From Antarctobacter heliothermus (lineage in GTDB: Bacteria > Pseudomonadota > Alphaproteobacteria > Rhodobacterales > Rhodobacteraceae), in NCBI RefSeq assembly GCF_002237555.1, contig NZ_CP022540.1, positions 868,001 through 932,000 of the forward strand: a DNA stretch of 64,000 nt, read 5' to 3'. The notes beneath the pieces are model-generated. The model was given only the letters and a program-made list of their open reading frames with translations, was not told the origin of the DNA and searched no databases. Of the stretch, positions 31,606 to 56,979 are shown in pieces (within the stretch, counting starts at the first letter, position 1; every line of letters starts with the position of its first letter). Position numbers and translations under genes: made by a program.

Positions 31606-32567
31606 CCGGCACACCCGTGGATGTCGTCCTGATTGGCCGCAACGAAGGCGACCGCCTGAAGGCCGCGCTGGCCTCTGTGGCCGGGCAGGCGCGGCAGGTG
31701 GTCTATGTGGACTCTGGGTCCACCGATAACAGCGTGGCCGAGGCACGCAACAGCGGTGCCACGGTTGTCGCGCTGGACATGTCCATCCCCTTTACCGCAG
31801 CGCGCGCGCGCAATGCCGGGTTTGATGCGCTGGACGATCCGCAGATCGTGCAGTTCATCGACGGCGATTGCAGCCTGATCCCCGGCTATCTGGTCGCGGC
31901 ACGGACCCACCTGGAGACACATCCAGAGCTGGGGCTGGTGACAGGGTGGCGGTCGGAAATGCACCCTGAGGCATCGATCTACAACGCGATCTGCGACTGG
32001 GAATGGCATCGCCCCGCCGGGCAGATCCTTGCCTGTGGTGGTGACATGATGGTGCGGGCAGAGGCATGGGCAGAGGTCGGCGGCATGAACCCCAGCGTGA
32101 TCGCCGCCGAGGATGATGAGTTCTGCACCCGCCTGCGCAAGGCAGGCTGGCGGTTAGAGCGCCTGCCGCTGGAAATGACCCGCCATGACGCCGCCATGAC
32201 CACCTTTGGCCAATGGTGGCGCCGCGCCGTGCGCACCGGTCACGGCTTTGCCCAGGTCGGACATCTGCACCCAGAGTATTTTCGCTCCGAACGTCGTCGC
32301 GTGCTGGTCTTTGGCCTGCTGCTGCCCGTTTTGTTTGTCCTTGGTCTTTTTGCCACACCCATGCTGAGCCTTGTGGTTGTAGCGCTCTATCTCGTCAGCC
32401 ACCTACGGTCGATCCGGGGGTTGCGCCGTGACGGTCTGCCGCCACGCAGAGCGCGCCGGTTGGCGATCCTGTTGACGCTGTCCAAGTTCCCGAACCTGAT
32501 CGGCATGGCGACATTCCACGCCCGGCACCTATCTGGTGCCGACATGCGGATTATCGAATACAAATGA
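31602..32567 (+). CDS. glycosyltransferase family 2 with C-terminal membrane segments
   Basis: 321 residues from the ATG overlapping the preceding stop (ATGA); an ATG four codons earlier is also possible. VVLIGRNEGDRLKAALASV and VVYVDSGSTDNSVAEA are the nucleotide-binding start, and FIDGDCSLIPGYL holds the D-x-D-like metal site. GGMNPSVIAAEDDEFCTRLRKAGWRL is the acceptor/ED region and FGQWWRRAVRTGHGF resembles the QxxRW-type element. About two C-terminal helices (VFGLLLPVLFVLGLFATPML, LVVVALYLVSHL) anchor it. An inverting transferase of the repeat-unit assembly. Confidence 0.87.
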   Translation: MTGTPVDVVLIGRNEGDRLKAALASVAGQARQVVYVDSGSTDNSVAEARNSGATVVALDMSIPFTAARARNAGFDALDDPQIVQFIDGDCSLIPGYLVAARTHLETHPELGLVTGWRSEMHPEASIYNAICDWEWHRPAGQILACGGDMMVRAEAWAEVGGMNPSVIAAEDDEFCTRLRKAGWRLERLPLEMTRHDAAMTTFGQWWRRAVRTGHGFAQVGHLHPEYFRSERRRVLVFGLLLPVLFVLGLFATPMLSLVVVALYLVSHLRSIRGLRRDGLPPRRARRLAILLTLSKFPNLIGMATFHARHLSGADMRIIEYK

Positions 32568-32577
32568 GGTCTTAGAG

Positions 32578-36310: not shown

Positions 36311-37639
36311 CTAGTGGCGGATCGCACGAGGCAAGAACCGCTCCGCAAAACCGGCCAGCACCGGAGAGCGTTCCCAGATCAGCCGCAGCCCCAGCCCGGC
36401 AAGGGCAAAGATCACCAGCAGTTTCGCCAACACCTTTAGCCCGCCGCGGCTGCGATCCTGCCGGGTGGTCACAACCGGGATAGCAACAACCGGCTGAATG
36501 CCCAGCATCCGTTCCATCTGTGCCGCCGAGCGGATCACCGGGTTCATCGTCTCGACCACAAAGGCGGCGGCAAGCCCCGCCAGCACGCTGGCCACGCCCC
36601 CCATCAGGGCAAGTTTCTTGCGGCTGCGCGAGACGGGAAATTCGGGAGGCAGGGCTGTTTCCAGCGCCTCGAACCTGTCGGTTGCCTGACGGTTCTCCAG
36701 CATCTGACCCAGTTCCGCCTCGGCCTTGCGCCGTGTGATCACCTCATACTGTTCGCGCAACATCGTCATCTCGCGTTCCAGCCGGTTGAACTCTCGCTCA
36801 ACCTCGGGCGCGCCAAGGATCAGCCTCTCAATTTCGGTAATGCGTGAGGCGATAAGCGCCTTTTGCTCCTGCAACGCCGCGATCTGGCGCAACCGCACAT
36901 CGTCCCGCGTCCGGTCGCTGGAGGTTTCGATGGTCAAGATCTGCTGATCAAGGTCCAAGTCGGTGGCGCGCAATGTGCTGAGTTGCGCCCGCAGGTCCAC
37001 CACGCCCGAAGGCAGCTGCTCTGCATTTTTACGCTTGAAGGCGGCCATTCGACCCTCAAGATCCTCGATTTCGGCCCCGACTCGGGCCTCTTCGGTGGCG
37101 AAAAAGTCAAAGGTATCACGCGCACGGCTGACGCTGCGCGAGCGCGATTGGTCGATCACAAGTTGCATCAGTTCGTTCGCCACATTGGCGGCCTTGTCCG
37201 GATCGTCCAATCGAACCGTGATCATCAATCCCGAAGGCGCATTGCCCCCTGGCGCAAAGGTCTGCGCCTGGCTGACCAGCTGCTGGATGCGCACGGCGTC
37301 CCGCATCCATCCCACACGTTCCGTCATGGTCATCGCCGGATTGTCGGCGAACAGCACATGTTTTTCCATTACCCGCACAAGATTGTCGCGTGCCATCAAC
37401 CGCTGTTCGATCAATCTGATCCGGCGGGCGGCGTCTGTATTGGTGGCCAGCGCTCCGGCCAGTTGGTCCGGCACCTGCGCATCTTCGATCTGTACGACGG
37501 CGGTGGCCTCATAGACCTTGGACTGGCCCAGCGCATAGTACAACGAGCCAAAGCAGCCCAGAAAGGTCACTACAATAATCAAAAGTGCGCGACGCCGGAG
37601 GGCCGCGAGAACTTCGCCAATCGACTGAAACTGCATCAT
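36311..37639 (-). CDS. Wzz/GumC-like polysaccharide chain-length protein
   Basis: 442 residues from the ATG pair at 37639/37636 (GGGAG upstream). One N-terminal membrane helix (LLIIVVTFLGCFGSLYYAL), VYEATAVVQIEDAQVPDQLAG (the Wzz beta start), a long periplasmic coiled-coil region (about 190-320), SRSRKKLALMGGVASVLAGLAAAFVVE as second helix with the Pro/Arg-flanked pattern of Wzz C-terminal anchors, then a cytoplasmic segment and an extra C-terminal hydrophobic stretch (LKVLAKLLVIFALAGLGLRL). Controls polymer length or forms the export conduit base with the BY-kinase-like gene. The extra third helix is unusual. Confidence 0.87.
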   Translation of the reverse strand: MMQFQSIGEVLAALRRRALLIIVVTFLGCFGSLYYALGQSKVYEATAVVQIEDAQVPDQLAGALATNTDAARRIRLIEQRLMARDNLVRVMEKHVLFADNPAMTMTERVGWMRDAVRIQQLVSQAQTFAPGGNAPSGLMITVRLDDPDKAANVANELMQLVIDQSRSRSVSRARDTFDFFATEEARVGAEIEDLEGRMAAFKRKNAEQLPSGVVDLRAQLSTLRATDLDLDQQILTIETSSDRTRDDVRLRQIAALQEQKALIASRITEIERLILGAPEVEREFNRLEREMTMLREQYEVITRRKAEAELGQMLENRQATDRFEALETALPPEFPVSRSRKKLALMGGVASVLAGLAAAFVVETMNPVIRSAAQMERMLGIQPVVAIPVVTTRQDRSRGGLKVLAKLLVIFALAGLGLRLIWERSPVLAGFAERFLPRAIRH

Positions 37640-37914
37640 CTCAATAACTCCCGCAAAACCGCCCCCGGCGCGGAGACAACATCCCAGGCCATCCGGCCCA
37701 ATCGCGTCGTCTTCTGGCCCCAACCTATCGAAGTTGCCTAAATTTTGCCATGAGATTGCCGTGGAAATGCAGGAAACAATGCGTGTCCCAGACGGGAACC
37801 ACGGTCATATTTTTGCCTCATTTCTAGCAGGATACAGGTGTATACCGGGAAACTGCAGCATGATTGTGGCTTAGTTTGAAGACGAGTGGGCGGGTGTAGC
37901 GCTAAGTGACAGGA
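37640..37914. other. gene-free region upstream of the Wzz gene
   Basis: About 275 bases with no supported reading frame, noticeably richer in A and T around 37740-37880 than the flanking genes. It probably carries the reverse-strand promoter of the Wzz gene. It separates the polysaccharide export genes from the decayed phosphopantetheinyl transferase remnant and the NRPS. No repeat or insertion-sequence end seen. Confidence 0.4.
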
Positions 37915-38227
37915 TCAGCCCACCACCCGCAGCCTGACGTATGAGCAGATCCATGCGCGATTCGGGCGGAATTGCGGCAGCATCCAGGTGATCGGTAGCC
38001 GCGCACAGCCCTTCGACAGATCAACCGCAAGCGCGTGAAAACCGAACACATGCTTCGCCATTGGACAATGCGTCTTGTAGGCGGCTTCCTTGGCCGAAAA
38101 CAGCCGATTGTCCAGCGTAGGGTGAGCGGCGTTCGGCAGCGTTCTCTGCCCGGCGGGCAGGACGCGCACGGGTCATCGCGGCGGCCTCCTCGGGGTACAG
38201 ATCATCCTCGCCGAGGACCGCATCGCG
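37915..38227 (-). pseudogene. remnant of an EntD/Sfp-type 4'-phosphopantetheinyl transferase, frameshifted and N-truncated
   Basis: One reverse frame (ending at 37915) encodes LDNRLFSAKEAAYKTHCPM...VFGFHALAVDL...LPITWMLPQF...WICSYVRL, the FSAKEAxYK core and C-terminal part of an EntD-type PPTase. Just upstream, in another frame that directly continues the NRPS frame after its stop, lies RDAVLGEDDLYPEEAAAMTRARPA, which fits the segment preceding that core. A frameshift near 38150 separates them. The N-terminal half (the ADP-binding and G-x-D parts) is missing, replaced by the NRPS end. It therefore cannot be active as it stands; the carrier proteins nearby must be primed by another enzyme. Confidence 0.7.
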
Positions 38228-41200
38228 TCAGGCCCGGCGCCGCGCGCGCATTTCCCGGCGGCGCGCCATTGCGTCGCTGCGCGATTGGGCGCGGGTGACT
38301 GCTTCCACAGGCGCAGGAGCGGCGGATTTCGCCACCATTGGCCCGTCAATCAACCCAGCAACCCGGCCTGCCAGATCAGCCAGCACCGGAAAGCGGAAGA
38401 TGTCGGTGATGGACAGTTTCAAAGCTCCCAGTTCCTCGCGGATGGCGCGGTGCGCCTGCACCGCCAGCAAGGAATGCCCGCCAAGATCAAAGAAATTGTC
38501 GCGCCCCGTCGCGCTGACGCCCAGAGTGCGCTGCCAGATCGCAGCAATCGCGGCCTCGACCTGTTGCGCGTCACCAGAGCCTGCAGGCGCAACCACCGGA
38601 ACAGCCACAGGTTTCGCCTGTGCCGCTTGCGGTAGGGGCAGCGCCTTGCGGTCAACCTTTTTGTTGGGCGTCAGGGGGAACGCATCCAGATGCACAAACC
38701 GTCCCGGCACCATAAATGCGGGCAAATCCCGCGCCATTGCCGCTTTCAGCGCGGCCTCTGGTTTCGATATGCCCGTGTAGTAGCCCACCAGCCGCACGTC
38801 GCCGGGCGTATCCTCCCGCGCTGCTACTACTCCCTGGGTCACGCTATCCAGCGCCTCAAGACAGGCCTCGATTTCGCCCAGTTCGATCCGGTGACCGCGC
38901 AGTTTGACCTGATGATCCACCCGCCCGACAAAGTCGATCTTGCCGTCAACACGCCGCCGCACCAGATCGCCGGTGCTATACATGCGACCGGGATGGAACG
39001 GGTTGTCGGTAAACTTTTCCGCCGTCAGATCGGGCCGCTGCCAATAGCCGCGCGTCACACCCTCACCGCCGATCCACAATTCGCCTTCCTGGCCAATACC
39101 GACAGGCTTGCGCTCTTCGTTCAGAACGTACAGATGCTGGTTCGCCAAAGGTGAACCGATATTCACCACTGCCTCACCCGGCGCGGCCCGCGTGCAAGAG
39201 GACCAGATCGTCGTTTCCGTCGGCCCGTACATGTTGGTCACGGTCGCATCAGTGATCTGGGCGAACTCCTCAACCAACGCTCCCGGCAGCGGCTCTCCGC
39301 CCAAGTACAGATGTTGTACGCTATTCAGGGCAAAGCGTGCCTCGTCGTTCATGGCGATCATCCGCGCCATCGACGGAGTGCATTGCAGATGGGTGACACC
39401 GTGGCGCACGATCTGCGCCGCGATGCTGAAATCATCGTCGGCCAGTTCTGCGGCACCGCCCGCTTGGGCGACCACATCTGCCAAGGGCCGCAGCCCCGCC
39501 ATCACCGTCCCACGGTCAATGCCATAGTCGATCAGACAGGCGATTTCGGTGACGCCGATGGCCTGCACCTGCTCTGTCCGCGCCAAGGCATCCTGAACCG
39601 TGCCGAACAGCCCGCTGTCGTTGAAATACCGCTCAAAGGCGAAGTCGAGGATAGCCTCAAGCTCATCCGGTTCCAGCCCGTCCAACTGCAAGTCAAAGGC
39701 ATTGGACGCGCCTTCGGGACGTTTGAACGCCGGAAAGGCCCAAGCGTATTGCTTGATCAGCCCCGCCGCCGACCGCAGGTAATCCTTCATCGGTTCACGA
39801 GCGATTTCGCGGGCGTGGTCGCGGCTGTCGGACAGGAAAGTGTGCAGCATCAGCGTCACTGTAAACTGCGCCGGATCATGGCCCGCCTCACGCAGCGCGG
39901 CGTGGTAGAGTTTGATCTTTTCGCCGACTTCATCGACCGTCTGACCCAACAGGTGAGTCAGCACGTTGCACCCCGCGCGCCCCGCCTCTTGCCAAGTCTG
40001 CGGGTTGCCTGCGGTCGTGACCCAAACCGGCAGTTCTTTGGACACCGGGCGCGGTTGCGTCACTACCTCATGCAGGGTGCCATCCTGACGGGGAAAACCA
40101 ACCGCCTCGCCGCGCCACAGCTTTCGCACGATCTCAAGATCGCGCATCATGGCGGGCTTGTTCTCGGGCGGGGTGTTTTCGGGGCGCAGGACAAAATCGT
40201 CCGGCTGCCAACCGCTGGCAATCGCCATGCCTGCGCGCCCGTTGGTCAGGTTGTCGATCACCGCCCATTCCTCGGCGATGCGGGCGGGATGGTGCAAAGG
40301 GGCCACAACAGAGCCGCCGCGCACACCGATGTTCTTGGTCACGCCCGCAACCGCCGCGCCGGTAACGCTAGGATTGGGATAGGGGCCGCCAAAGGCATGA
40401 AAATGCCGCTCCGGTGTCCAGACGGCGACAAAACCGTTTTCGTCCGCGAACTGCGCCCCCTCCAGCAGCAAGGCGTATTTATCTCTGCCCGCGCCGTCGT
40501 CATTGCCCCAGTAATACAGCGAGAATTCCATACCGTTGCCGCGCGGCATCGGCCCGTTGGAAATCAGGCCCCGGTCCTCATCGCCCGTCAGCACCACGGT
40601 CAGCCCGCGCGCCGTCGTCCAGAACAGTTCCAGCACAGAGATGTCGAACGACAGCGAAGTCACCGCCAGCCACGTCCCGCCATCATGCGGAACATGGGCG
40701 TCCATTCCGGTGTAGAAGTTGCAGACATTGCGATGCTCGACCATCACGCCCTTGGGTTTGCCGGTCGATCCGCTGGTGTAGATCAAATAGGCAAGATCTT
40801 CGGGGCCGCTGGTGTCGGGCAGGTTGTGGTCTGGCTTCGCGGTCAGGCGCGGCTCTGCGTCCAGCACCAAAAGCTGAGCATCGTGGCGCGGCAGCGCCGG
40901 TTCAATCGCCGCCTGAGTGACGATGACCTGTGCGCCACTGTCCTCAACGAAATGCTGCAAACGGTCGGCGGGGTAGCCGGGATCCATCGGCAGATAGGCC
41001 CCCCCCGCCTTGAGGATCGCCAGCGCGCCGACCATCAGATCGACAGAGCGGCGACAGCACAGGCCCACCACCTGCCCCTTTGTCACGCCCATGTCGCGCA
41101 ACACATGTGCGGCCCGGTTGGCACGCGCATTCAGGTCAGCATAGGTCAGGTTCTGGTTCTCAAAGATCAGCGCGACGGCGTCCGGCGTGCGCGCGGCCTG

Positions 41201-42715
41201 CACCTCAAAGGCGCGGTGCATGGTCAGAGTGCGGTCATGCGCCGTCTCTGTCACGTTCCATCGGTTCAGCACCAGATCGCGTTCAGGATCGGGCAAGTCC
41301 TGTTCCGGCGCGACCGCCATCAGTTCCAGCCGTGCGGCCAGCAGTTCCGCAAAGGCAGGCGGCAACCGTCCGGCATCATAGCTGAGTTGGACCTCATCGC
41401 CAAAGATCACCGTCACCACGGTGCCGGGCACATGGCCCGCACCATCCACAGCGACACCAATCTGCGGCACGTCCGGCCAGTTCAATTCCGGGGCGCGGAC
41501 AAAGAGATCCGTCGCCACCGGGTGCCGCGCCCGCAGCGGGGCCCAAGGCAGCACCAGCCCACCAGCCGCCATTCGCACCAGCGCGCCGTCTGCCCACGCC
41601 AGGTCCGCCCCCCGCCCGGCCAGATGGTCCGCCCAACGGGATACCAGAGCAACTCCATCCTCCCCGCCCGGCACGTTCAGCGTTCGGGTTTCCAGCACGG
41701 TTTCGCCTGCCTCCAACCCGCTCAATTCCGCGGGTTGCAAAGACGCCATGACTGTCCGCATCCGACCTTCATGGCGGGCGACCTTGCCCATCTCCGCATC
41801 AATCGTGGTGCGGGTGTCCGCATCCGGCAAGTCCAACACATCCCCAACGGCAACGATCTGATCCGCCCTGACCGGCGCACCGCAGAGGCGCGTCAGTGCC
41901 GACAACACCAGCGCGTGTTCTCCGCACGCCACGGTCAGATGGTCATCACCAACCTCCAGCACAGTGCCGGGCGCGGCGTGCGCCTCTGTCAGGCGCGCAC
42001 GACCGACCAACCAGACAGACCCTCGCGCGCGGATTTTCGGCGTACAAAGCGGGTTCCAATACGGCCCATGATCCAGTGCGCGCACCATCCGTTCCAGCTC
42101 AGCTGCAGAGCGACGGAAATCCAACAACCCAAACCCCAAAGGACGCTTAGCGAGCGCATGGTAGCTGCGTTGCGACAAGTCCTGCTTTACCCGGCGCAAA
42201 TCACCGCTTTCAAGCTGGTCCAGCAGCGCAGGAAACGACCCCATCGCCGCCTCATAGGCCTTTGCGTTCAGGGTCAGCGCCGTGTCCTGCGCCGCCACGT
42301 CAAACCCGGCCTGAACAAGGATATCCCCCTTATCCACGCCGCCTTCGATCATGTGCCAGGTGATGCCGTGCCGCGTCTCGTCCTCGATCAACGCCCAGAT
42401 CGGGGCATTCAGCCCGGCGTGACGCGGTAAAGGGCCGTCGTGGAAATTCACCGCGCCTTTTGAGGGCAACGCCAGCACGTCGTCGGGAATGATTGACAGG
42501 TTCGCGATGGACAAAAGCCAGTCAAAATCCCCTGGCAGGCGCGCCGCCAGATCCTGTCCCGGTGACTCAACCCGCAATCCCGCAGCCTCGGCCCACCGAC
42601 GCACTTCGGCGCTGTCGGTCACCACTGCAGCAACGGTGTTGCCCCGCGCGCGCGCCATCTCGGCACAGTGCACCAGCAGCGATTCATTGCCCCAGACGAC
42701 GCAGGAAAACCCCAT
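38228..42715 (-). CDS. NRPS: formyltransferase - (C remnant) - A with internal luciferase-like monooxygenase - T
   Basis: 1495 residues. About 1-307 is a formyltransferase of the methionyl-tRNA formyltransferase fold, with the catalytic N-x-H (AVNFHDGPLPRHAG, N90/H92) and GGVDKGDIL (D128). About 327-487 resembles only the tail of a condensation domain and has no HHxxxDG. The adenylation domain starts about 502 (LTYADLNARAN, YLIYTSGSTGKPKGV, LSFDISVLE), is interrupted at about 727-1082 by a luciferase-like FMN monooxygenase (EFSLYYWGNDDG, VWTPERHFHAFGGPYPNPSV, RAGMAIASGW), and resumes with LQCTPSM, NMYGPTETTIWS, YSTGDLVRR, GRVDHQVKLRGHRIELGEIE and NKKVDRKAL. The carrier site is DLGGHSLL (S1415). 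A basic tail ends the protein. The ATG at 42715 is chosen because GGAG lies 8 bases upstream, inside the end of the preceding gene. Confidence 0.93.
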   Translation of the reverse strand: MGFSCVVWGNESLLVHCAEMARARGNTVAAVVTDSAEVRRWAEAAGLRVESPGQDLAARLPGDFDWLLSIANLSIIPDDVLALPSKGAVNFHDGPLPRHAGLNAPIWALIEDETRHGITWHMIEGGVDKGDILVQAGFDVAAQDTALTLNAKAYEAAMGSFPALLDQLESGDLRRVKQDLSQRSYHALAKRPLGFGLLDFRRSAAELERMVRALDHGPYWNPLCTPKIRARGSVWLVGRARLTEAHAAPGTVLEVGDDHLTVACGEHALVLSALTRLCGAPVRADQIVAVGDVLDLPDADTRTTIDAEMGKVARHEGRMRTVMASLQPAELSGLEAGETVLETRTLNVPGGEDGVALVSRWADHLAGRGADLAWADGALVRMAAGGLVLPWAPLRARHPVATDLFVRAPELNWPDVPQIGVAVDGAGHVPGTVVTVIFGDEVQLSYDAGRLPPAFAELLAARLELMAVAPEQDLPDPERDLVLNRWNVTETAHDRTLTMHRAFEVQAARTPDAVALIFENQNLTYADLNARANRAAHVLRDMGVTKGQVVGLCCRRSVDLMVGALAILKAGGAYLPMDPGYPADRLQHFVEDSGAQVIVTQAAIEPALPRHDAQLLVLDAEPRLTAKPDHNLPDTSGPEDLAYLIYTSGSTGKPKGVMVEHRNVCNFYTGMDAHVPHDGGTWLAVTSLSFDISVLELFWTTARGLTVVLTGDEDRGLISNGPMPRGNGMEFSLYYWGNDDGAGRDKYALLLEGAQFADENGFVAVWTPERHFHAFGGPYPNPSVTGAAVAGVTKNIGVRGGSVVAPLHHPARIAEEWAVIDNLTNGRAGMAIASGWQPDDFVLRPENTPPENKPAMMRDLEIVRKLWRGEAVGFPRQDGTLHEVVTQPRPVSKELPVWVTTAGNPQTWQEAGRAGCNVLTHLLGQTVDEVGEKIKLYHAALREAGHDPAQFTVTLMLHTFLSDSRDHAREIAREPMKDYLRSAAGLIKQYAWAFPAFKRPEGASNAFDLQLDGLEPDELEAILDFAFERYFNDSGLFGTVQDALARTEQVQAIGVTEIACLIDYGIDRGTVMAGLRPLADVVAQAGGAAELADDDFSIAAQIVRHGVTHLQCTPSMARMIAMNDEARFALNSVQHLYLGGEPLPGALVEEFAQITDATVTNMYGPTETTIWSSCTRAAPGEAVVNIGSPLANQHLYVLNEERKPVGIGQEGELWIGGEGVTRGYWQRPDLTAEKFTDNPFHPGRMYSTGDLVRRRVDGKIDFVGRVDHQVKLRGHRIELGEIEACLEALDSVTQGVVAAREDTPGDVRLVGYYTGISKPEAALKAAMARDLPAFMVPGRFVHLDAFPLTPNKKVDRKALPLPQAAQAKPVAVPVVAPAGSGDAQQVEAAIAAIWQRTLGVSATGRDNFFDLGGHSLLAVQAHRAIREELGALKLSITDIFRFPVLADLAGRVAGLIDGPMVAKSAAPAPVEAVTRAQSRSDAMARRREMRARRRA

Positions 42716-42720
42716 TTTCT

Positions 42721-43737
42721 TCACTCCGCTTCCAGTTCAGCCGCGACCCGCACCCTTGGTGGGGCCGCTTTGCGCTTTTCCGGCGGGGGCCGGAACAGCA
42801 CCTCGATGTCATGTACCAGCAGATCACGCAGAAAATGCGGCGGATCGGCAGGCGTCTTTCGCTGCAGCAGGACGCGCAGCCGCCAAAACGCCCCGCCCAC
42901 CCCGTGCATAAGCGTTGCCAGCGCAGCATAACCCCGCCCGTGGTTTTTGGAGAAATAGTGCCATCGGCTGTCCAGCCAGAACCCCGGGATGCGCTTCCAT
43001 TTCTTCATACCAGTCGAAACTGACCCGATGTGGGCGACCTCACTCTCGCGTACATAATGGGTCTCATACCCCGCCCGCGCGGCGCGCAGGCAAAGGTCGG
43101 TTTCCTCGAAGTACAGGAAGAACAGCTCATCAAAGAGGCCGATCTCCTTCAGCACGCTGTGCCGCATCATGATCGACGCCCCGGCCAACCAATCGACCCG
43201 CCGTGTGGCCTCTGGCACGCCAATCGGCACAGATTTTTCCGCCAACCAACGCGACACAGGGCCAAAGCGCATCGCCCCTTCAAGTTCAGACCATATCGAC
43301 GGAAACCGAAAGGCCGTCACATGCGCATCGCCGTCTTCGCCGTGGATGTAACTGCCGGCAAAGCCCGCCTCTGGATGGTTTTCCAGATGGTCGTGCAAGT
43401 GTCGGATCGCATCGGGCGCAGGGAAGGCATCGGAGTTGAGCAGATAGACGTAGTCTGGGACTCTGCCATCCGATATCGCCGCGCGAATACCGACGTTGTT
43501 GCCCGCGCCGAACCCGCCATTCACGCCCGATTGCACCACCCGGATTGGCGCACCTTGTGCCCAATCCTCGGAAGCAACCGCCTTGACGATCCGCTCATAC
43601 GACCCATCACCTGAGGCGTTGTCGACCACCACCAATTCGGCATCCATACCGTCCATAGCGCGCAATGCGGCGCGCATGGACCGCAGCGTCATCTCTGCCG
43701 TCCTGTAGTTCAGCGACACCACCAGAACCCGCGCCAT
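42721..43737 (-). CDS. glycosyltransferase family 2 (rhamnosyltransferase-like) between PKS and NRPS
   Basis: 338 residues: VLVVSLNYRTAEMTLRSM, LVVVDNASGDGSYE, GGFGAGNNVGIR, YVYLLNSDAFPAPDAI (D-x-D-type site) and WLAGASIMMRHSVLKEIGLFDELFFLYFEETDLCLRAARAGY, the strongly conserved block of GT2 rhamnosyl/galactofuranosyl transferases. Its ATG at 43737 uses a GGAG that overlaps the PKS stop (GCGGAGTGA), and its own end has the same GCGGAGTGA feeding the NRPS start. It is therefore cotranslated with both megasynthases and probably glycosylates their product or links it to the polysaccharide. Confidence 0.9.
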   Translation of the reverse strand: MARVLVVSLNYRTAEMTLRSMRAALRAMDGMDAELVVVDNASGDGSYERIVKAVASEDWAQGAPIRVVQSGVNGGFGAGNNVGIRAAISDGRVPDYVYLLNSDAFPAPDAIRHLHDHLENHPEAGFAGSYIHGEDGDAHVTAFRFPSIWSELEGAMRFGPVSRWLAEKSVPIGVPEATRRVDWLAGASIMMRHSVLKEIGLFDELFFLYFEETDLCLRAARAGYETHYVRESEVAHIGSVSTGMKKWKRIPGFWLDSRWHYFSKNHGRGYAALATLMHGVGGAFWRLRVLLQRKTPADPPHFLRDLLVHDIEVLFRPPPEKRKAAPPRVRVAAELEAE

Positions 43738-43742
43738 GCCGA

Positions 43743-46700
43743 TCACTCCGCCGCGTGGCTGGGAAAGGCCACCACTTCGCCATTGCCGCCAGATGCCGCC
43801 TCTGCGCCGTCGATCGCGTCCCGCATAATTGCAGCCAGCACGCGCACGTTAGGCTCTAGCACCATGCTGTCATGGTCGCCGGGCACCTCGTGCACCTCAA
43901 CCCCCGGCACCATCCGGCCCCAGTCGTTGTCATGGGTCACATAGGTCCGCTCCGAGTTCACCAGCGCACCGTTTGAAACCGCCCATTTTCCCACCAGCGG
44001 CGGACGACACAGCACCACGCGCCCATCCCAAGGCCGCACCGTGTACCCGGCGATGGCGCGGTAGAACGCCGCTTCGATTTCGGCGTTGTGGAAACCGTGC
44101 TGCGGACCTGTAGCCTCTGCCTGCCGCCGTTTGGCGATCTCCCATTTGATGCGGTTCTTCAGCCAGATGAAGGGATACAGCGGCCCCTTTTCGCGGGCCT
44201 GATGCCATTGGATGATCAACCGATCTTGCCGTGACAAAGCCCGCCGCTGCGGCAAAGGCGTGTCCAGCATGACCACCAGAGAGACCTCTTCGCCCATGAT
44301 CTCCAATTGGCGCGCCACCTCATAGGCGGTAATTCCACCGCCAGAGAACCCCCCAAGCATGTAGGGACCGTTCGGTTGCACTTGCCGCATCTCGGCGATG
44401 TAATCGCGCGCCGCCTCTTCGATGCTGTCGTGCGGGGCCTCGCCGCCATACAGGCCCCGCGCCTGAAGACCGTAAAACGGCCGGTCCGCGCCCAACAGAT
44501 GCGCAAGGTGGCGCAGGTTCAGCACGTTGCCAAACATCCCTGCGATCAGGAAAAAGGGCCGTCGCGCGCCACCGTCGCCGTCATGCATCGGCACCAAATG
44601 CGTGAAACGACGCTCTGGCGTGGGTTTGGCACCGGGCTCGGCATCAACGGGGCCAATCTGCGCCTCAATCAAGGCGGCGCATTTGCGAATGGTCGGCGCC
44701 TCGAACAGAACAGAGATCGGGAAATCCACGCGGAACGCCTTTTTCACCATCGCAAACAGACGCACCGCGATCAACGAATGCCCGCCAAGGTCGAAAAAGC
44801 TGTCTTCGGCACCGACGTTTTGTACGCCCAGCAGTTCCTCCCAGAACCCGGCCAGCCGCTGCTCTATCTCACCCTCAGGGGCGACATAATCGCTTTCCAA
44901 TTGCGGCCGATCAAAGGTCTGCCCGCTTGTCGCCTCTGCCACCGAGGCCGCCGCCTGACGCGTCAGTGCATCCAGATCCATCGAGGACACCACCACCTGC
45001 CGCGCGCCCAATGCGAGCGCCCGATGAAACGCCTCAATCCCCTCGTCCGGCAAGATGCCTTGGCTCAGGTTATGCGCCAGACGCTCTTCGGCGGCGGACA
45101 ACGGATGCAAGATGTCGGTGTCATCCAGTTCCAGTTCGGCAGCCGTCAGCGGAGGGGCGGCCTTCAGCACATTCGCCGTGGCCAATTTGCGGATGGTAAA
45201 GCCCGTGACCTCGACCAGCACCTCTCCTGCGGCGTCGCACAGCGTGATGTCAAAGCTCGCCGTCTCACGGTCCGCGCGGTTTTCAGCAGCATTGCGGACC
45301 CAGGACACAACGCGATCCGGTAGCGCCCCATGTACCCGCACGCGGCCATAGCGCACCGGCACCCACAAATGCGTCGGCTGATAGCCCGCAATCAGATCCA
45401 TCGCCCATCCGGTGGCAATGTCCATCAGCGCCGGGTGCAGCAGAGTTTCGGGCGCAGAGGCATTCGCGAGCAGCGACAGGTCGGCAATCCCTTCCCCTTG
45501 CCCCAGCGCGCGGGCATCCAGCACCCTCCAACTGTCACCAAACGCCAGATGCACCTCCTGCGCCGAAGTCAGCTTGGCCCCGTTGCCGTCCACATGGGCC
45601 GGGCATCGCGCCCGGATCGCGTCCAGATCCAGCCGAGCGGGCCGCGCCATCGGCATCAGCGACAGCGCCCCCTGCGCCGTCAGGGCAAAGCCGTGGCGAC
45701 CATTCAGTGTGGCATCCCCCAGCACGTCAAAGTCATAGCCCTCGTCAGAGCGTGTCAGCCGCAGCCGCACATCCCGCGCGCCACCATCGGCCACCCTCAG
45801 GGGGCGCAGGAACGACAGGTCGCGGATCTCGAACACGCCGCTTTCGCCATGGGCCTGCAGCGCTTGGGCTGCCAGCGATAGATAGCCGGTGCCCGGCAAC
45901 AGCGCATCGCCCGCCTTGGTGCGATGCTGATCGATGAACCAGTCGTCAGTGGAATAGCGCGCGGAAAAGATGCGGTTGCCGTGGTCGTCGAAACTCGCCT
46001 CGGCCAGCATCTCTTGCGCCACCGGCGTCACCGGGGGTTTCGGCAGGTCGCCAGTGCGCGCGGCGACTGCCTCGGCCGCCATGCCGACCTCGTTCCAGAT
46101 ACCCCAGTTGATCGCGACGATCCGCGTCTTTCCAGTGCGAGCGCAGGCAAAGGCGTTCAAGAACTCATTTGCGGCGACGTAGTCCACCTGACCCGCCGGT
46201 GCGGTGACGGTGGAAGAGGAACTGAACAGCGCCATCCAGTCCAGCGCACCGTCAGGGAAAACCTCTCCCAATACCTGCGCTCCGTGGATTTTAGGGGTGA
46301 ATACGTCCTCGACGCTGGCGGACGTTTTGGTCAGCAAAGGAGCATCGTCAATGACGCCCGCGCCATGAATCACGCCGGTGATCGGACCAAATCGGTCCTC
46401 AACCGTGCGCCGTACTTGCTGCATCTGGCCAAGGTTGCAAACGTCTGCGGCCAACACCATGACCTCTGCCCCGGCCTCTTCCAAGGCCTGAACGGATTTG
46501 ATCCGCCGTGCAATCCGGTCCTGCGGTGCGTGGCGATGCAGGTAATCGGGCCAGTCGGCACGATCCGGCAGCGCCTTGCGCGCCAATAGCACCAGTTTTG
46601 CCCCCCGTGAGGCGAAATCCTGCGCCAATGTCAGACCAATTCCGCCAAACCCGCCGGTGATCAGAACAACGCCGCCCCCTTCGACCACGGGTTCCTCGCG

Positions 46701-49700
46701 CAGTGCCACGGGACGCAGCGCGCATTCGAAACGGCGATCGCCGCGCAGGGCCGCGATGCGATCCCCCGGTTCACTGAGCAGTTCCTCCAGAACGCGCAAA
46801 GCCAGCGCCTCCTGCGCGGCGTCCTGTGCCGCCTGCCCCTTGGCCCGCGACCAGAATGAAGCCTCCAATGGGTTTGGCAATGTCACGTCCAGAGTCGAGA
46901 CGCTTACGCCCGGTAGTTCGCGCGGGATCACCCGGGCAGGCCCCGCGATGGTCGCCTTTTCAGGGTAGGGCAGCGCCTCATCCCGCAATTGCGCAGCGCC
47001 ATTCGTCACGACGGTCATATGCAACGGACGCGGCAGCCCCTCAGTCTCCATCGCCTGCGCAAGGAACATCAGCGCATAGAATCCTTGCTCTTGCACGCGG
47101 TGGAAAAAGCTGGACCCGGGACGATGGGTTTCCCCTTCTGTCAGCAACCAGAAATGCCCGATCCGTGTGGGCACGATCCCACGCAGACCAAGGTCCTGCA
47201 ACAAAAGGTCATATCCTTCGCGCCCGCGTTCTGGTGCCAGCACATAACCCTCGCCGACACGCGAGAATGCGTCGCCGGGGCGCACCTCGACCACAGCATG
47301 GCCAGCCTTGCGCAGACGATGCACCGAACGCATCGCCACGCCAGCCTCATCCATAAACATGAGCCAGACCTGAGGTGTGGCCTCATGCAGGCCCTCCACC
47401 ACGTCCACTTCGACCGGGGCGGACCGGGGCCGCCAAACCGGCTGCCAGCCCCATTCGGACAGGTCGTCATTGCGCATCAGGAAACTGGGCGCGCTGTCTG
47501 TTGCGGCCTTGCCCGGAGCGATGAAATAGGGGCTGCGCTGAAAGGCATAGGTCGGCAGAACCACGCGGTTGCGCCGCGCGTCGCCCCAGATCTGCCCCCA
47601 GTCAATGTCCACGCCCAGCGCGGACAGCCGCCCCAGCACCTCGAACATGTGCTTGTCGTCGGCGATCGCTTCTTCGGGATGGCGCAGCGACGACAGCACC
47701 TGATTGCCGGAAACCTCGGCGTGTTGCCGCGCCAGAGAGGACAGCGCCTTGCCCGGTCCGACCTCAAGAAAAACCCGGTTGTCCGCAGCCAAGGCCCCCA
47801 CGCAATCGGCGAACAGCACCGTGCCGCGCAGATGCGCAACCCAATAGTCCGGGTCCGTCGCCTGTTCCGCCGTCATCATCTGGCCGGTCCGATTCGATGT
47901 CAGAGGAAGCCGCGGCGCGTGCAGATCTATCGACCGCAAGTATTCGCCAAATTGCGCCAAAATCGGCTCCAGCATGCGGCTGTGCGCCGCGATGTCGATG
48001 CCGATGCGGGTGTTTTGCACCTCACGCCGCTCCAACTCTGCCTGCAAGACATCCAGCGCCGCCTGCGGCCCGGACGCCACCGACAGTTCTGGTCCGTTCA
48101 CCGCGCCCAGATCCAGATCATCGCCCAACAAGGGCTGCAGTTCATCCGCAGGCAGGCCCACTGACAGCATCCCGCCCGCAGGCACCGAGTCAAACAGCCG
48201 CCCGCGCAGGTGCACCAAACCGATGCAATCCTCAAATCCGATCACCCCCGCCACGCAGGCGGCGGTGTTTTCGCCCATGCTATGACCGGTCAGCGCGACA
48301 GGCGTCACGCCCCAACTTTGCCACAACTGCGCCAGCGCATATTCCGTGATCATGATCAGCGGCAATTGCAGTGAGGGCGTCAACAGCGCGGCATCCGCTG
48401 CCGCCTCTTCCCCGCGCGGGGGTAGCCAAAGATCCCGGACCCCCGGCTTCTTCTTGGCAGAAATACTCACTTCGGCATCGCCACCCGCGATCCGCTCAAG
48501 ATGGTCCAGCCCCCGGTCCATCCACTCAGCAAAAACCGGCTCTGTCTCATACAGATCACGCGCCATGCCTGCGTACTGCGCGCCCCCGCCGGGAAACATG
48601 AACACGACCTCAGGCCGGTCCAGCGCTTGATGGTCGAACACCCGCCGCGCCTCGACGCCTTCCAATAGGCGCGCCGCCTCTTCGTGAGAGTTCGCCACAA
48701 CGACCCGGCGCTTTTCAAACGCGCGCCGCCCCTCTTTCAGGGTCCAAGCGACATCCGCCAGATCCTGTTCCGGATGCGCCCGCAGATGCGTGGCCAACCG
48801 GGTGGCATTGCCGTCCAGCGCCAGTTTGCTCCGGGCGGAGATCGTCAGAATTTGGAACGGCCAGTCAGATTTCGCGCTTGCCGCGCGCTCCGGTGCCTCT
48901 TCGAGAACCACATGTGCGTTGGTCCCGCCCACCCCCAAAGAGTTCACCCCGGCGCGGCGCGGATGCGTCAATCGCGGCCAGTCGCGCAAACGGTCGTTCA
49001 CCGCAAAGGGCGACCCATCAAAGTCAATCGCGGGGTTCGGGGCCTCAAACCCCAATGAGGGTGGCATCTGCTGGTTGTGCAGGGCCAGGGACGCCTTGAT
49101 CAAGGACGCCACACCCGCCGCCGTATCCAGATGCCCGATGTTGGTCTTGACCGATCCGATGCGGCAATGACCAACAGCATTCGATGTCTCGGCAAAGGCC
49201 TGTGTCAGTGCGGCCACCTCAATCGGGTCGCCCAGATAGGTGCCGGTGCCGTGGCATTCGACGTAATCCACAGTATCCGCCGTAACCCCCGCAATGGCCT
49301 GCGCCTCCGCCACGGCCACGGCCTGTCCCTCGACGCTGGGCGCGAGGTATCCGGCCTTTTGTGCGCCGTCATTGTTGACAGCGGACCCCTTGATCACCGC
49401 CCAGATGTGGTCGCCATCAGCCGCCGCATCTGCCAGCCGCCGCAACACCACAACCCCCGCGCCAGAGCCGAACACCGTGCCTTGCGCGCGATGGTCAAAG
49501 GCGTGGCATTGGCCGTCCGGAGACAGGATTTCATTCTCCTTGTAGAGATACCCGCGCCCCTGCGGCAGTTCGATGGTCACGCCGCCCGCAATGGCCATGT
49601 CGCATTCACCGTTCAGCAGCGCTTGCGCGGCGTAGTGTGTCGCCACCAACGAGGTCGAACACGCCGTCTGAAGGTTGATCGACGGCCCGTGCAGATCCAG

Positions 49701-50210
49701 CACATGGCTCAGCCGCGTGGTCATGAAATCCTTGTCGTTGCCAGTATGGCGCAGCAAGAACATGCCCGTATTCTCGACCAGATCCGGGTTCGAACAGACG
49801 TTGAAATAAAAGTACGACCCCATGCCACAACCGGCAAAGACACCAACCTGACCGTCGAATGTCTCGGGCACATGACCTGCCGTCTCCAGCGCCTCCCAGG
49901 CGCATTCCAGGAATTGGCGGTGCTGCGGGTCCATGATCGCCGCCTCCTTTGGACTGAATCCAAAGAACTCGGCATCGAAGTGGTCAAAATCATCCAGAGG
50001 CGCGGCAAAAGGCACATAATCGCGGTGCCGCATCAGGCCGGGGTCTTCGCCCGCCGCGCGCAAATCGTCCTCAGACAGACGCCGGATCGACGACACGCCG
50101 TCACGCAGATTTCGCCAATAGGTCGCGATGTCCGCAGCCCCCGGCAAATGCGCCGCCATCCCCACGATGGCGATATCGTTTTCACCAATGCGGGCGTTGT
50201 CATCGGTCAT
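43743..50210 (-). CDS. modular type I PKS: KS-AT-KR-DH-ACP-TE
   Basis: 2155 residues. The ketosynthase has C184 (TACSTSL), H320 (HGTGT) and H360 (KTNIGH). The acyltransferase has GHSMGE (S644), with AAHS in place of the classical HAFH/YASH specificity motif. A long linker leads to a ketoreductase with TGGFGGIG (about 1185), FSSSSTVTAPAGQVDYVAANEF and WGIWNEVGMA. A dehydratase-like double hotdog follows, with H1429 (DQHRTKAGDALLPG) and D1597 (HPALMDIATG). Next is ILPDEGIEAFHRAL...QVVVSSMDL, which normally closes a KR. Then come ACP S1812 (DLGGHSLI) and a thioesterase with GFSGGG (S1956) and GDHDSMV. The ATG at 50210 follows GGAG; a TTG at 50222 is possible. First gene of the PKS-GT-NRPS operon. 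Confidence 0.94.
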   Translation of the reverse strand: MTDDNARIGENDIAIVGMAAHLPGAADIATYWRNLRDGVSSIRRLSEDDLRAAGEDPGLMRHRDYVPFAAPLDDFDHFDAEFFGFSPKEAAIMDPQHRQFLECAWEALETAGHVPETFDGQVGVFAGCGMGSYFYFNVCSNPDLVENTGMFLLRHTGNDKDFMTTRLSHVLDLHGPSINLQTACSTSLVATHYAAQALLNGECDMAIAGGVTIELPQGRGYLYKENEILSPDGQCHAFDHRAQGTVFGSGAGVVVLRRLADAAADGDHIWAVIKGSAVNNDGAQKAGYLAPSVEGQAVAVAEAQAIAGVTADTVDYVECHGTGTYLGDPIEVAALTQAFAETSNAVGHCRIGSVKTNIGHLDTAAGVASLIKASLALHNQQMPPSLGFEAPNPAIDFDGSPFAVNDRLRDWPRLTHPRRAGVNSLGVGGTNAHVVLEEAPERAASAKSDWPFQILTISARSKLALDGNATRLATHLRAHPEQDLADVAWTLKEGRRAFEKRRVVVANSHEEAARLLEGVEARRVFDHQALDRPEVVFMFPGGGAQYAGMARDLYETEPVFAEWMDRGLDHLERIAGGDAEVSISAKKKPGVRDLWLPPRGEEAAADAALLTPSLQLPLIMITEYALAQLWQSWGVTPVALTGHSMGENTAACVAGVIGFEDCIGLVHLRGRLFDSVPAGGMLSVGLPADELQPLLGDDLDLGAVNGPELSVASGPQAALDVLQAELERREVQNTRIGIDIAAHSRMLEPILAQFGEYLRSIDLHAPRLPLTSNRTGQMMTAEQATDPDYWVAHLRGTVLFADCVGALAADNRVFLEVGPGKALSSLARQHAEVSGNQVLSSLRHPEEAIADDKHMFEVLGRLSALGVDIDWGQIWGDARRNRVVLPTYAFQRSPYFIAPGKAATDSAPSFLMRNDDLSEWGWQPVWRPRSAPVEVDVVEGLHEATPQVWLMFMDEAGVAMRSVHRLRKAGHAVVEVRPGDAFSRVGEGYVLAPERGREGYDLLLQDLGLRGIVPTRIGHFWLLTEGETHRPGSSFFHRVQEQGFYALMFLAQAMETEGLPRPLHMTVVTNGAAQLRDEALPYPEKATIAGPARVIPRELPGVSVSTLDVTLPNPLEASFWSRAKGQAAQDAAQEALALRVLEELLSEPGDRIAALRGDRRFECALRPVALREEPVVEGGGVVLITGGFGGIGLTLAQDFASRGAKLVLLARKALPDRADWPDYLHRHAPQDRIARRIKSVQALEEAGAEVMVLAADVCNLGQMQQVRRTVEDRFGPITGVIHGAGVIDDAPLLTKTSASVEDVFTPKIHGAQVLGEVFPDGALDWMALFSSSSTVTAPAGQVDYVAANEFLNAFACARTGKTRIVAINWGIWNEVGMAAEAVAARTGDLPKPPVTPVAQEMLAEASFDDHGNRIFSARYSTDDWFIDQHRTKAGDALLPGTGYLSLAAQALQAHGESGVFEIRDLSFLRPLRVADGGARDVRLRLTRSDEGYDFDVLGDATLNGRHGFALTAQGALSLMPMARPARLDLDAIRARCPAHVDGNGAKLTSAQEVHLAFGDSWRVLDARALGQGEGIADLSLLANASAPETLLHPALMDIATGWAMDLIAGYQPTHLWVPVRYGRVRVHGALPDRVVSWVRNAAENRADRETASFDITLCDAAGEVLVEVTGFTIRKLATANVLKAAPPLTAAELELDDTDILHPLSAAEERLAHNLSQGILPDEGIEAFHRALALGARQVVVSSMDLDALTRQAAASVAEATSGQTFDRPQLESDYVAPEGEIEQRLAGFWEELLGVQNVGAEDSFFDLGGHSLIAVRLFAMVKKAFRVDFPISVLFEAPTIRKCAALIEAQIGPVDAEPGAKPTPERRFTHLVPMHDGDGGARRPFFLIAGMFGNVLNLRHLAHLLGADRPFYGLQARGLYGGEAPHDSIEEAARDYIAEMRQVQPNGPYMLGGFSGGGITAYEVARQLEIMGEEVSLVVMLDTPLPQRRALSRQDRLIIQWHQAREKGPLYPFIWLKNRIKWEIAKRRQAEATGPQHGFHNAEIEAAFYRAIAGYTVRPWDGRVVLCRPPLVGKWAVSNGALVNSERTYVTHDNDWGRMVPGVEVHEVPGDHDSMVLEPNVRVLAAIMRDAIDGAEAASGGNGEVVAFPSHAAE

Positions 50211-50391
50211 TGCTGACTCCAAATGAATTCACGCCGCCACCCACCGTCTCATTTGCCCGGCGATTGCGGCGATTTTTAGGAGTTTCCGCCTGAATCCGCC
50301 CTATTGGCGACAAGATATGGGGATAACTGTAACGACGCCTAGACAAACAGCCTATCCTTTTCGGGATTGTTTCCTAACGGGAAAAATGGGC

Positions 50392-51753
50392 CTATCCTCC
50401 CTGCAGGACCAGTTGCAGAATCGGGCCCCAGTTCAGCCAAAGCGCCAGTGCCGACAGCATCAGGCCAACCCCAAAAAACACCGCATCATGCAGCCTGTCC
50501 CACGCCCCCGAGCGCCGCGCCAGCCAGACAACCGCCGGATATGCCAGCGTAAAGGCCGCCGCCTGCCCGATCAACGCACCGATCAACCCGGCCGCCTGCA
50601 ATCCGATCAGAACGCAGCCCACCATCAGGACCGCGCGCGCAAAGGCGAGATAGAAATAGCGCCGCGAATCCCCGGCCGCCAAGGCCGCCTGATCATAGGT
50701 CATCACAATCAGCATCGGGATTTGCGCACAGGCCAACACCACGGCCACAGCCCCTGCCTCATCATAGCGTACGTCATATAGCGTCTGCACCAACCAGACC
50801 CCGAGCAGGGCAAAGACCGCCACAAACCCGATCAACAGCGACGAGACGGCAAACCGCATCTTGCGCAGCTTGAGGAAGTTTTCCCGGCTTTCGGTAGGCG
50901 GGGTTTCCCGGTAGACAGGGATCAAGATTTTATGCGTCACCAGATTGCCCAGCATCAGCGGGAAAGACGCCCAGAAAAACCCGATATTGTAGACTCCAAA
51001 AGCGTCCAGCGCGATAAACTTGCCAATCAGCATCTTGTCGGCTTGGGTAAAGAAGAACCCGCAGACCGTGGCTAGAAACACCCATTTGCCAAAACCAATC
51101 AGCTCTTTTGCCGCCGCTTTTTCCCAGCGCAGCCGGTTGCCTGGCCCAGGCAGAAAGCGCCAGTTCAGAACAACCTCGATCAGAGCGCCGATCACGCCTG
51201 ACACTACCAGCGCCCAGATTGACCCCCACCACCAAGCCAGCAGGACCGCGGTGAGCATTCCGGCCACTTGCGTCCCGATGTCCAGAACCGTCACCCGGCC
51301 CAGCATCAGGTGTCGGTTGGCGGTGATCATCCGCGTCGGTCGAAACCCGGTAATCAGCAGCGTCAGCGCAGAGACTGGCAAGATTTGCGCCAGCATCGGT
51401 TGGTCATAAAACCACGCCATCGGCCAGGCCAATGCGCAAGCCACCAGCCACAGCCCAACGCCACGAAACGCCTGAATGGTCCATGCGGTATCCAGAAAGC
51501 GTTGATCGTCGCCGCGTCTGGATTGCATGATCGATGGGGTCACTCCGACGTCGGAAAACTGCCCCAACCCCATCAGGAACACCATGACCAAGGCCATCAG
51601 GCCAAAAGCCTCTGGGAACAGCAGGCGGGTCAGAATCAGGTTTGACGCCAGACGCAAGACTTGGGCAAAACCAAAACTGCCCATCGTGAGCAGCGATGAA
51701 CGCATGGCGCGTGCGGTGATCGACCCGCCTCGGAGCGCGGCAAGCGTGCTCAT
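50392..51753 (-). CDS. Wzx-like polysaccharide flippase (MATE/MOP superfamily)
   Basis: 453 residues, about 12-14 hydrophobic segments. The N-terminal half has FAQVLRLASNLILTRLLFPEAFGLMALVMVF and FSDVGVTPSIMQSRRGDDQRFLDTAWTIQAFRGV, the signature of the polysaccharide-exporter branch (WzxC/RfbX/MviN-like). It would flip lipid-linked repeat units to the periplasm for the Wzy-like polymerase. The ATG overlaps the stop of its downstream partner glycosyltransferase (TCAT on the forward strand), so they form a two-gene operon transcribed toward the PKS, 182 bases upstream of it. Confidence 0.88.
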   Translation of the reverse strand: MSTLAALRGGSITARAMRSSLLTMGSFGFAQVLRLASNLILTRLLFPEAFGLMALVMVFLMGLGQFSDVGVTPSIMQSRRGDDQRFLDTAWTIQAFRGVGLWLVACALAWPMAWFYDQPMLAQILPVSALTLLITGFRPTRMITANRHLMLGRVTVLDIGTQVAGMLTAVLLAWWWGSIWALVVSGVIGALIEVVLNWRFLPGPGNRLRWEKAAAKELIGFGKWVFLATVCGFFFTQADKMLIGKFIALDAFGVYNIGFFWASFPLMLGNLVTHKILIPVYRETPPTESRENFLKLRKMRFAVSSLLIGFVAVFALLGVWLVQTLYDVRYDEAGAVAVVLACAQIPMLIVMTYDQAALAAGDSRRYFYLAFARAVLMVGCVLIGLQAAGLIGALIGQAAAFTLAYPAVVWLARRSGAWDRLHDAVFFGVGLMLSALALWLNWGPILQLVLQGG

Positions 51754-52601
51754 CGTCCCCGGCTCCAGTCCTGATTGCTGCGCGGGGTCAATTTGACCGC
51801 CAAAGCGACCCCGGCATAGATCAAAAACCCCAGCGGATCACTCAGGGCGATCCCCAATTTTTCCGCTGCTGGAAAATCAGGCTTGTCCTCGTTACGGATG
51901 AGGTCGGGGTAACGCGCGGCAATCTCATCCACACCCGCGTTCTGCCGCCGCCGCACCCTGACCAGATTGCGCCACCCTTCGGCTATCGGCCAACGGTAAG
52001 AGGAAGGCACGCCAACGCGTTCCTTGGGATCAAAGTGCAGGCGCACAAAAACGTCGTCTGCGATGATGTGGGGAAAGCTCCCCCAGCGCGCGCGCCCCGC
52101 CGCGTTCACGGCAAACAGTCCGCACCCCGGCACCACATCTCGCATAAACGGCACGCGCCGCCAGATCCGCGCATAGGCGCGGCTGATCGGCGTTGTCGCG
52201 ACGATATGGACCGCACCACTTGCGTAGCGTGGCGTGGCGGCGTCCAAGGCAGCGAAAAGCTGCCCCAACAGATCAGGCGTCACCGTCACATCGGCATCCA
52301 GATACACACGGACAGGCCCCTGCGCCGCCGCATCCCCTGCGTTCAGCGCACCCGGCTTGCCGCCCTCCGCGCGTTCTATCACCGCAAGGGTCCAGCCCAT
52401 GCCCGCCGCCTGCGCCGCAAATGACCGCGCCACCGATGCGGTATCATCCACGCAGCCGTTGGCCACCACGATCACCTCGGCGCAGCCGGAAAACCGTGAC
52501 GCCAGCAACGCCTCAAGGCAGCCGCCGATCAGCGCCGCCTCATTGCTTGCTGGCACGATCACAGTGACGTCCGTGCCGCGCGATTGATAGTCTTGATCCA
52601 T
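51750..52601 (-). CDS. glycosyltransferase family 2
   Basis: 283 residues from the ATG at 52601 (GGCAGGGAT upstream); the frame continues upstream without family similarity. VTVIVPASNEAALIGGCLEALL, EVIVVANGCVDDTASVA and VRVYLDADVTVTPDLL (D-x-D site) are the GT2 landmarks; IIADDVFVRLHF is a plausible acceptor/catalytic ED region. A C-terminal hydrophobic stretch (LGFLIYAGVALAVKL) may associate it with the membrane. The flippase gene stands upstream in transcription order only by the 4-base overlap at its stop. Confidence 0.85.
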   Translation of the reverse strand: MDQDYQSRGTDVTVIVPASNEAALIGGCLEALLASRFSGCAEVIVVANGCVDDTASVARSFAAQAAGMGWTLAVIERAEGGKPGALNAGDAAAQGPVRVYLDADVTVTPDLLGQLFAALDAATPRYASGAVHIVATTPISRAYARIWRRVPFMRDVVPGCGLFAVNAAGRARWGSFPHIIADDVFVRLHFDPKERVGVPSSYRWPIAEGWRNLVRVRRRQNAGVDEIAARYPDLIRNEDKPDFPAAEKLGIALSDPLGFLIYAGVALAVKLTPRSNQDWSRGR

Positions 52602-52763
52602 ATCCCTGCCCACACCCGTACCCATGTGGCCACACCTTGAAAAAATACGCCATGCCCCGCACTGGAAACTGCCCCGGAACTGTGGCCAAAGCGTGAAATC
52701 ACTTAGGTTTGTAAGAGACCAACGCCCTAGCGGCGGTGCGGCTGCCATCTCAAGGACTAACAG

Positions 52764-56918: not shown

Positions 56919-56979
56919 GCCCTGCCCCAATTTTTTTTATGCCTCGGGGTCAGTATGCCTGATGTTTCACGCTGAGCAA

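Follow-up and report, generated by a model that had tools for sequence, protein, structure and literature searches.

Type I polyketide synthase (PKS) genes are already known from capsule loci, among them those for RkpA and WcbR of rhizobia and Burkholderia, and the available passages on these systems mention no coupled glycine-loading nonribosomal peptide synthetase (NRPS) (PMC3908369). The locus described here lies in a 64,000-nucleotide stretch of the Antarctobacter heliothermus genome (the window; C1:868001-932000 of a 5.33-Mb genome). It resembles these systems in carrying a type I PKS gene among extracellular polysaccharide (EPS) genes, a likeness of locus, but it differs from them in that a GT2 glycosyltransferase gene and an NRPS gene of the glycine-loading kind complete a PKS-GT2-NRPS trio. 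As far as the published passages go, the NRPS shares with MtaG (myxothiazol), MelG (melithiazol) and SolF (solanimycin) a glycine code and a monooxygenase within the adenylation (A) domain (PMC12283262, PMC10204066). With the initiation module of linear gramicidin synthesis, LgrA, it shares the order formyltransferase-A-carrier (T), but it differs from LgrA in its luciferase-like monooxygenase (LLM) insert, its glycine code, and a remnant of the C-terminal lobe of a condensation (C) domain between formyltransferase and A domain. Modules of the MtaG, MelG and SolF type use a complete C domain to act on a chain that is already growing, whereas the window NRPS is a loading protein with a formyltransferase, has only the C-lobe remnant, and is found in EPS loci. 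Searches of an open-access library, judged by listings and passages, gave no account of such a trio within EPS loci and no product for it; new here are the glycine code, the C-lobe remnant, the counts of trio-EPS linkage, the wider occurrence, and a natural variant (G114, discussed later).

We propose, with a probability of about one half, that the trio makes an acyl substituent for the surrounding EPS, specifically a C4 acyl group derived from N-formylglycine. The direct support consists of the domains, the conserved active sites, the glycine code, the operon and the conserved EPS linkage; we infer the product, the reaction order, the single extension, the acceptor and the role of the GT2, and for the last two the evidence is genomic context. 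The original prediction, made from the DNA letters, was of a single reverse-strand PKS-GT2-NRPS operon in an EPS locus, and open reading frames and domain searches bore it out. All three genes are on the minus strand, encoding the PKS (43743-50222; first in-frame start TTG at 50222, with an ATG at 50210), the GT2 (42721-43746; PF00535, E 4.5e-15) and the NRPS (38228-42724), and the PKS/GT2 and GT2/NRPS overlaps are 4 bp each. Many of the PKS proteins share a conserved AAE end, which is probably where the GT2 gene that overlaps has its ribosome-binding site.

Domain search likewise recovered the anticipated PKS order of ketosynthase (KS), acyltransferase (AT), ketoreductase (KR), dehydratase (DH), acyl carrier protein (ACP) and thioesterase (TE). 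In the usual PKS order DH comes before KR, so the two are reversed here, as they are in the Aliiroseovarius, Aminobacter and Deinococcus relatives. The alignments held 78 of the 80 named NRPS sequences (sampling described below), 72 of the 80 PKS and 76 of the 80 GT2 sequences, each plus the window sequence. Residues invariant in 73/73 aligned PKS proteins are C188, H324 and H364 of the KS, S648 and H747 of the AT, Y1348 and N1352 of the KR, H1433 and D1601 of the DH, S1816 of the ACP, and S1960, D1987 and H2117 of the TE. A search of solved structures with the PKS returned many KS-AT relatives.

For the NRPS, a formyltransferase, an A domain with an inserted monooxygenase and a T domain had been foreseen, and the search found just these: Formyl_trans_N and Formyl_trans_C, an AMP-binding domain split by the LLM, and PP-binding. 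On the minus strand, the formyltransferase (residues 1-291, 41852-42724; PF00551/PF02911) is followed by the C-lobe remnant (residues ~291-505, 41210-41854), the first part of the A domain (residues 506-717, 40574-41209; PF00501), the LLM (residues 734-1084, 39473-40525; TIGR04020, 471 bits against a cut-off of 244), the second part of the A domain (residues 1097-1362, 38639-39436), and the T domain (residues 1392-1454, 38363-38551; PF00550). The protein is 91% identical to the NRPS of its closest named relative, also from Antarctobacter heliothermus. Ahead of A-T, the formyltransferase residues N93, H95 and D131 are invariant in 79/79 aligned NRPS proteins, and 78 of the 79 have the carrier serine, the other having an X. 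By these residues, both the PKS and the NRPS enzymes look active. Within the NRPS, conservation is highest in the LLM and, among the stretches measured, lowest in the C-lobe remnant.

The A-domain code, its positions (D694, I695 and L698 among them) assigned via GrsA motifs, is DILQxGMIWK, and across the 79 aligned proteins only the fifth position (299) varies, apart from one X at 322. In the consulted part of a 2025 survey, four glycine-activating domains with a monooxygenase all carry the code DILQLGMIWK (PMC12283262). Because the window code matches that printed code, the amino acid activated is most likely glycine, to judge from the sequence.

The closest solved relatives of the formyltransferase are Met-tRNA and sugar-nucleotide formyltransferases, with LgrA further off by E-value, and the best solved-structure matches to the whole NRPS are LgrA chains. 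Between formyltransferase and A domain, residues ~291-505 match solved condensation domains at their ends (best E 2e-10), and in a single profile comparison they were collinear with the C-terminal lobe of a condensation domain (probability 78%, E 1.8e-5). The remnant profile also fits the NRPS proteins of Ruegeria, Shinella, Aminobacter and Paracoccus, that of Aliiroseovarius weakly, and that of Deinococcus not at all. Pfam reported no condensation domain in the window NRPS, whose remnant has no HHxxxDG motif, and neither HHxxxDG nor HHxxxDA occurred among the NRPS proteins of six relatives checked. An ancestral extension module may have turned into a loader once the formyltransferase displaced the N-lobe of its C domain. 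At the other end of the protein is a conserved basic tail (window ~38231-38290, minus strand), resembling DAMxRRRxMRxRR in most of 27 tails, Burkholderiales included; it is a possible docking element.

A homologous 4'-phosphopantetheinyl transferase gene follows the NRPS gene in 70 of the 80 named loci, eight of the 70 having a stop inside the aligned stretch. In the window this gene (37874-38355, minus strand) is broken, with four homologous pieces and an internal part missing, and the genome has two other members of the family above cut-off. Elsewhere in this genome (C1:3510000-3563000, outside the window), several further type I PKS genes, adenylation domains and a phosphopantetheinyl transferase are clustered, apparently as a larger PKS/NRPS cluster.

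Linkage to EPS genes was examined in two samples. The named loci are the 80 kept out of 105 confirmed relatives, and were found by NRPS peptide patterns; because one of these patterns falls inside the LLM, the set is biased towards LLM-bearing copies, a bias that a GT2-based count lacks. PKS, GT2 and NRPS are contiguous in 77/80 named loci, the exceptions being two contig ends and a Curvibacter locus (L066) with the order GT2-PKS-NRPS, and EPS-type genes are present in 77/80, the remaining three being short contigs. The second sample was an even one of 198 genomes of the family, in which the NRPS was found in 68, the trio GT2 in 67 and both in 64. It gave 70 NRPS places, from which 62 loci were fetched; the eight left out (G000, the window's own genome, and G127, G098, G187, G033, G147, G195 and G143) were for the most part short contigs or partial matches. 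In 58 of the 62 fetched loci the trio is contiguous, and EPS-type genes lie within ~20 kb in 58/62, compared with 0/20 arbitrarily placed 20-kb control loci from genomes of the same family. Because the queries for EPS genes themselves came from trio loci, detection is favoured in such loci; the control database does yield other matches.

The predicted tie to polysaccharide, for which the original reading had named synteny as a possible refutation, is supported by synteny in relatives. A purely accidental adjacency of trio and polysaccharide genes could draw on the few relatives in which no EPS-type genes were detected, but it is very improbable given both sets of counts, even with the origin of the queries borne in mind, and the 20-locus control rules it out as a general explanation within the family. 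A Gfo/Idh-epimerase fusion (32536-34680, plus strand in the window) served as an EPS marker. It occurs in 31/198 genomes, 30 of which have the NRPS (Fisher p 1.5e-15) and all 31 the trio GT2; marker and NRPS lie within ~20 kb in 25 of the 30, on separate contigs in four, and ~190 kb apart in one. By these data, trio and EPS go together in roughly one third of the family's sampled genera (68/198). The trio is also present in Phaeobacter marinintestinus (L088). In the available part of a study of Phaeobacter inhibens, an orphan PKS (Inhi_1972) and an orphan NRPS (Inhi_1974) are given neither a product nor an EPS link (PMC4062626); because the two are one gene apart, they are perhaps this trio.

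An N-formylated, FMN-oxidised aminoacyl unit extended by one C2 unit had originally been envisaged. To this our analysis adds glycine, from the code, and the action of the NRPS before the PKS, since in Aliiroseovarius and Deinococcus the loading gene comes first and the PKS gene next; the chemistry itself is still a prediction. The NRPS would activate glycine and hold it on its carrier domain, the formyltransferase would formylate the glycyl amine, and the flavin monooxygenase, from the chemistry of its family, is predicted to oxidise the glycyl alpha-carbon. The KS of the PKS would receive the N-formyl-(hydroxy)glycyl unit, and one C2 unit would be added from malonate; KR and DH would then reduce and dehydrate this to a C4 acyl group, e.g., 4-formamido-but-2-enoyl, with or without a 4-hydroxyl. 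The TE may release this acyl group or transfer it to a sugar, and the GT2 would add the acylated sugar to the repeat unit ahead of Wzx/Wzz-dependent export.

The oxidation step admits a different outcome, in which, as with myxothiazol and melithiazol, the alpha-hydroxylated N-formylglycine falls apart, a glyoxylyl group stays on the carrier and the product, which may still decorate the EPS, has no formamide. In known pathways the same kind of monooxygenase-bearing glycine module does cleave the glycine backbone, according to the published passages (PMC12283262, PMC10204066). We nevertheless consider this route improbable: as far as the cited passages describe solanimycin B, its biosynthesis is taken to include hydroxylation of glycine at the alpha-carbon by such a module, and the compound retains alpha-hydroxyglycine (PMC10204066), while the G114 variant keeps its formyltransferase without a monooxygenase.

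That variant and a second one bear on the proposed substituent itself. In G114 (locus L202) the NRPS lacks the LLM, has the code DILQLGLIWK, and preserves its formyltransferase and carrier residues. The PKS of G114 is without DH and its KR residues are altered, those of KS, AT, ACP and TE being intact; the trio GT2 and the EPS neighbours are retained. Such joint loss of the oxidation and reduction steps, seen in this one case, is what a joint NRPS-PKS pathway would predict. The other variant, G126 (L201), is the sole marker genome without a high-scoring NRPS. Its trio is decayed, with no LLM, no carrier domain found, changed KS and AT residues and an in-frame stop in the PKS, and the EPS genes around it still match. 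Because the assembly line of G126 has decayed while the EPS genes persist, the trio product seems dispensable for the EPS locus, and decoration fits better, on this one case, than a role as carrier or anchor.

The same two variants speak against an iterative PKS that makes a lipid to anchor or carry the polysaccharide, as proposed for capsule PKS enzymes of the RkpA/WcbR type. This has a precedent in type I PKS genes of capsule loci, as the available passages describe them (PMC3908369), but we give it little credence: the PKS here is coupled to a glycine-loading, formylating NRPS, G114, having lost KR residues and DH, would have no route to a reduced chain, and in G126 the EPS genes have outlasted the trio.

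Assembly lines of this type inside EPS genes extend beyond the family; their carriers include many bacteria of the sea as well as some from fresh water and soil. In a phylum-wide sample 16/398 genomes match, the window's own included, and the PKS-NRPS pair was found in polysaccharide loci of Burkholderiales, Hyphomicrobiales and one Deinococcus. The trio lies within EPS loci on plasmids of Ruegeria conchae and Paracoccus marcusii; plasmids of Aminobacter and Shinella carry divergent PKS and NRPS genes in EPS loci, with no GT2 between them. In Hydrogenophaga pseudoflava the trio is accompanied by WecG, a phosphopantetheinyl transferase, a GT4 and an ATPase nearest to an XrtA-type model (below its cut-off), and homologues of this ATPase occur in 11 of 13 Burkholderiales loci. 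The polysaccharide locus of Deinococcus actinosclerus has, in line, a separate formyltransferase gene, A[LLM]-T and KS-AT-KR-DH-ACP-C, so that its PKS ends in a condensation domain, not a TE; a terminal condensation domain is a release type able to join a chain to an acceptor. In a tree built by a quick method, 12 of the 13 Burkholderiales copies form one group. The Curvibacter copy branches apart from these, next to that of an alphaproteobacterial metagenome-assembled genome (MAG), and the set around it also includes Gemmobacter copies; this placement suggests a transfer. Also grouping with the Gemmobacter copies is the trio of a MAG recorded as Exiguobacterium profundum (L075), which is probably a mislabelled or mixed assembly.

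Several observations weigh against an EPS substituent. Four loci of the family sample are without EPS-type genes (L128 and L143, both with an eight-transmembrane (8-TM) protein, L153 and L172), and among the sampled non-family loci EPS-type genes are present in only 3/6. In genome G214 (L153/L204) the middle GT2 is missing from a set of PKS, NRPS and phosphopantetheinyl transferase genes, and no EPS-type genes were detected in ~20 kb. Neither the Aminobacter and Shinella loci nor the Deinococcus locus yielded a trio GT2, and the window genes that were scanned included no recognisable aminotransferase for making an amino-sugar acceptor. Aliiroseovarius has KS-AT-KR-DH-ACP-C-A-T-TE after its loading protein, and the annotation of the 31 kb covered shows no EPS gene. 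A TE normally can give a free acid, and the loss of the LLM in G114 is a single case.

Some of these points would suit a trio that makes a free glycosylated small molecule (a signal, chelator or antibiotic), co-regulated with the EPS for biofilm life and remaining outside the polymer: the PKS ends in a TE, Aliiroseovarius pairs the same loading protein with a longer PKS-NRPS away from EPS genes, and half of the six non-family loci have no EPS-type genes. An additional NRPS gene of A-T-C-A-T-TE type also stands beside the trio in H. pseudoflava (L084, 16594-22605, plus strand), two genes behind it. We regard such a free molecule as a serious but rather unlikely alternative, since the EPS linkage spans orders plus a Deinococcus, the GT2 sits between PKS and NRPS in 77/80 loci, and the stretch of the window that separates the trio from the neighbouring EPS genes has no recognised dedicated exporter or regulator.

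The setting of the trio suggests an unrecognised chemical decoration of extracellular polysaccharide. More tentatively, we suggest that a widespread EPS class, found across several proteobacterial orders and in Deinococcus, bears an acyl group that a dedicated NRPS-PKS line builds from formyl-glycine and malonate, with the final TE (in Deinococcus, the terminal C domain) acting as acyl transferase to the sugar; assembly-line enzymology would then be part of ordinary polysaccharide synthesis. To gene-cluster miners the trio would be an orphan metabolite cluster, and its PKS and NRPS would be passed over by those who study polysaccharides. If the product does sit on the EPS, it offers (i) a testable chemical signature for a common marine biofilm polymer, and (ii) a series of variants (without LLM or DH, TE- or C-terminated, decayed) from which to learn how assembly lines feed polysaccharide synthesis.

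In the window, polysaccharide genes flank the trio on both sides, as expected from the original reading (Wzz, BY-kinase-like, Wzx and several glycosyltransferases). Upstream on the trio's strand are a GT2 gene (51750-52874; PF00535, E 2.3e-18) and then a Wzx-type flippase gene (50392-51753; PF13440, E 2.8e-47), which is 169 bp from the PKS gene; a GT4 gene (52764-54014; PF00534, E 5.7e-35) is on the plus strand. On the other side are genes for a Wzz-type chain-length protein (36311-37723, minus strand; PF02706) and a BY-kinase-like protein (34898-36277, plus strand). The best models for the latter two are XrtA-type, yet both fall under the curated cut-offs (TIGR03007, 135.8 bits against 278.9, and TIGR03018, 80.7 bits against 230.7, respectively). 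Exosortase dependence was rejected for this genome, which gave 0 matches to PF09721; the Ruegeria conchae locus carries an annotated xrtD. The presence of both a Wzx flippase and Wzz is a feature of Wzx/Wzy-type EPS loci, and a possible Wzy polymerase is a protein with eight hydrophobic, TM-like segments (18619-20262, plus strand) and no Pfam or NCBIfam match. Other genes around the trio encode WecG, Gfo/Idh and epimerase proteins, and an AT3-SGNH acyltransferase.

Two further minus-strand genes lie beyond the GT4 gene. One (57015-58292) has a product that matches the CEL-III C-terminal domain (PF18054, 289 bits), whose fold is known from a sea cucumber lectin. The other (54009-56930) encodes a 973-residue protein with RTX repeats, relatives of which are found near the trio in 33/80 named loci.

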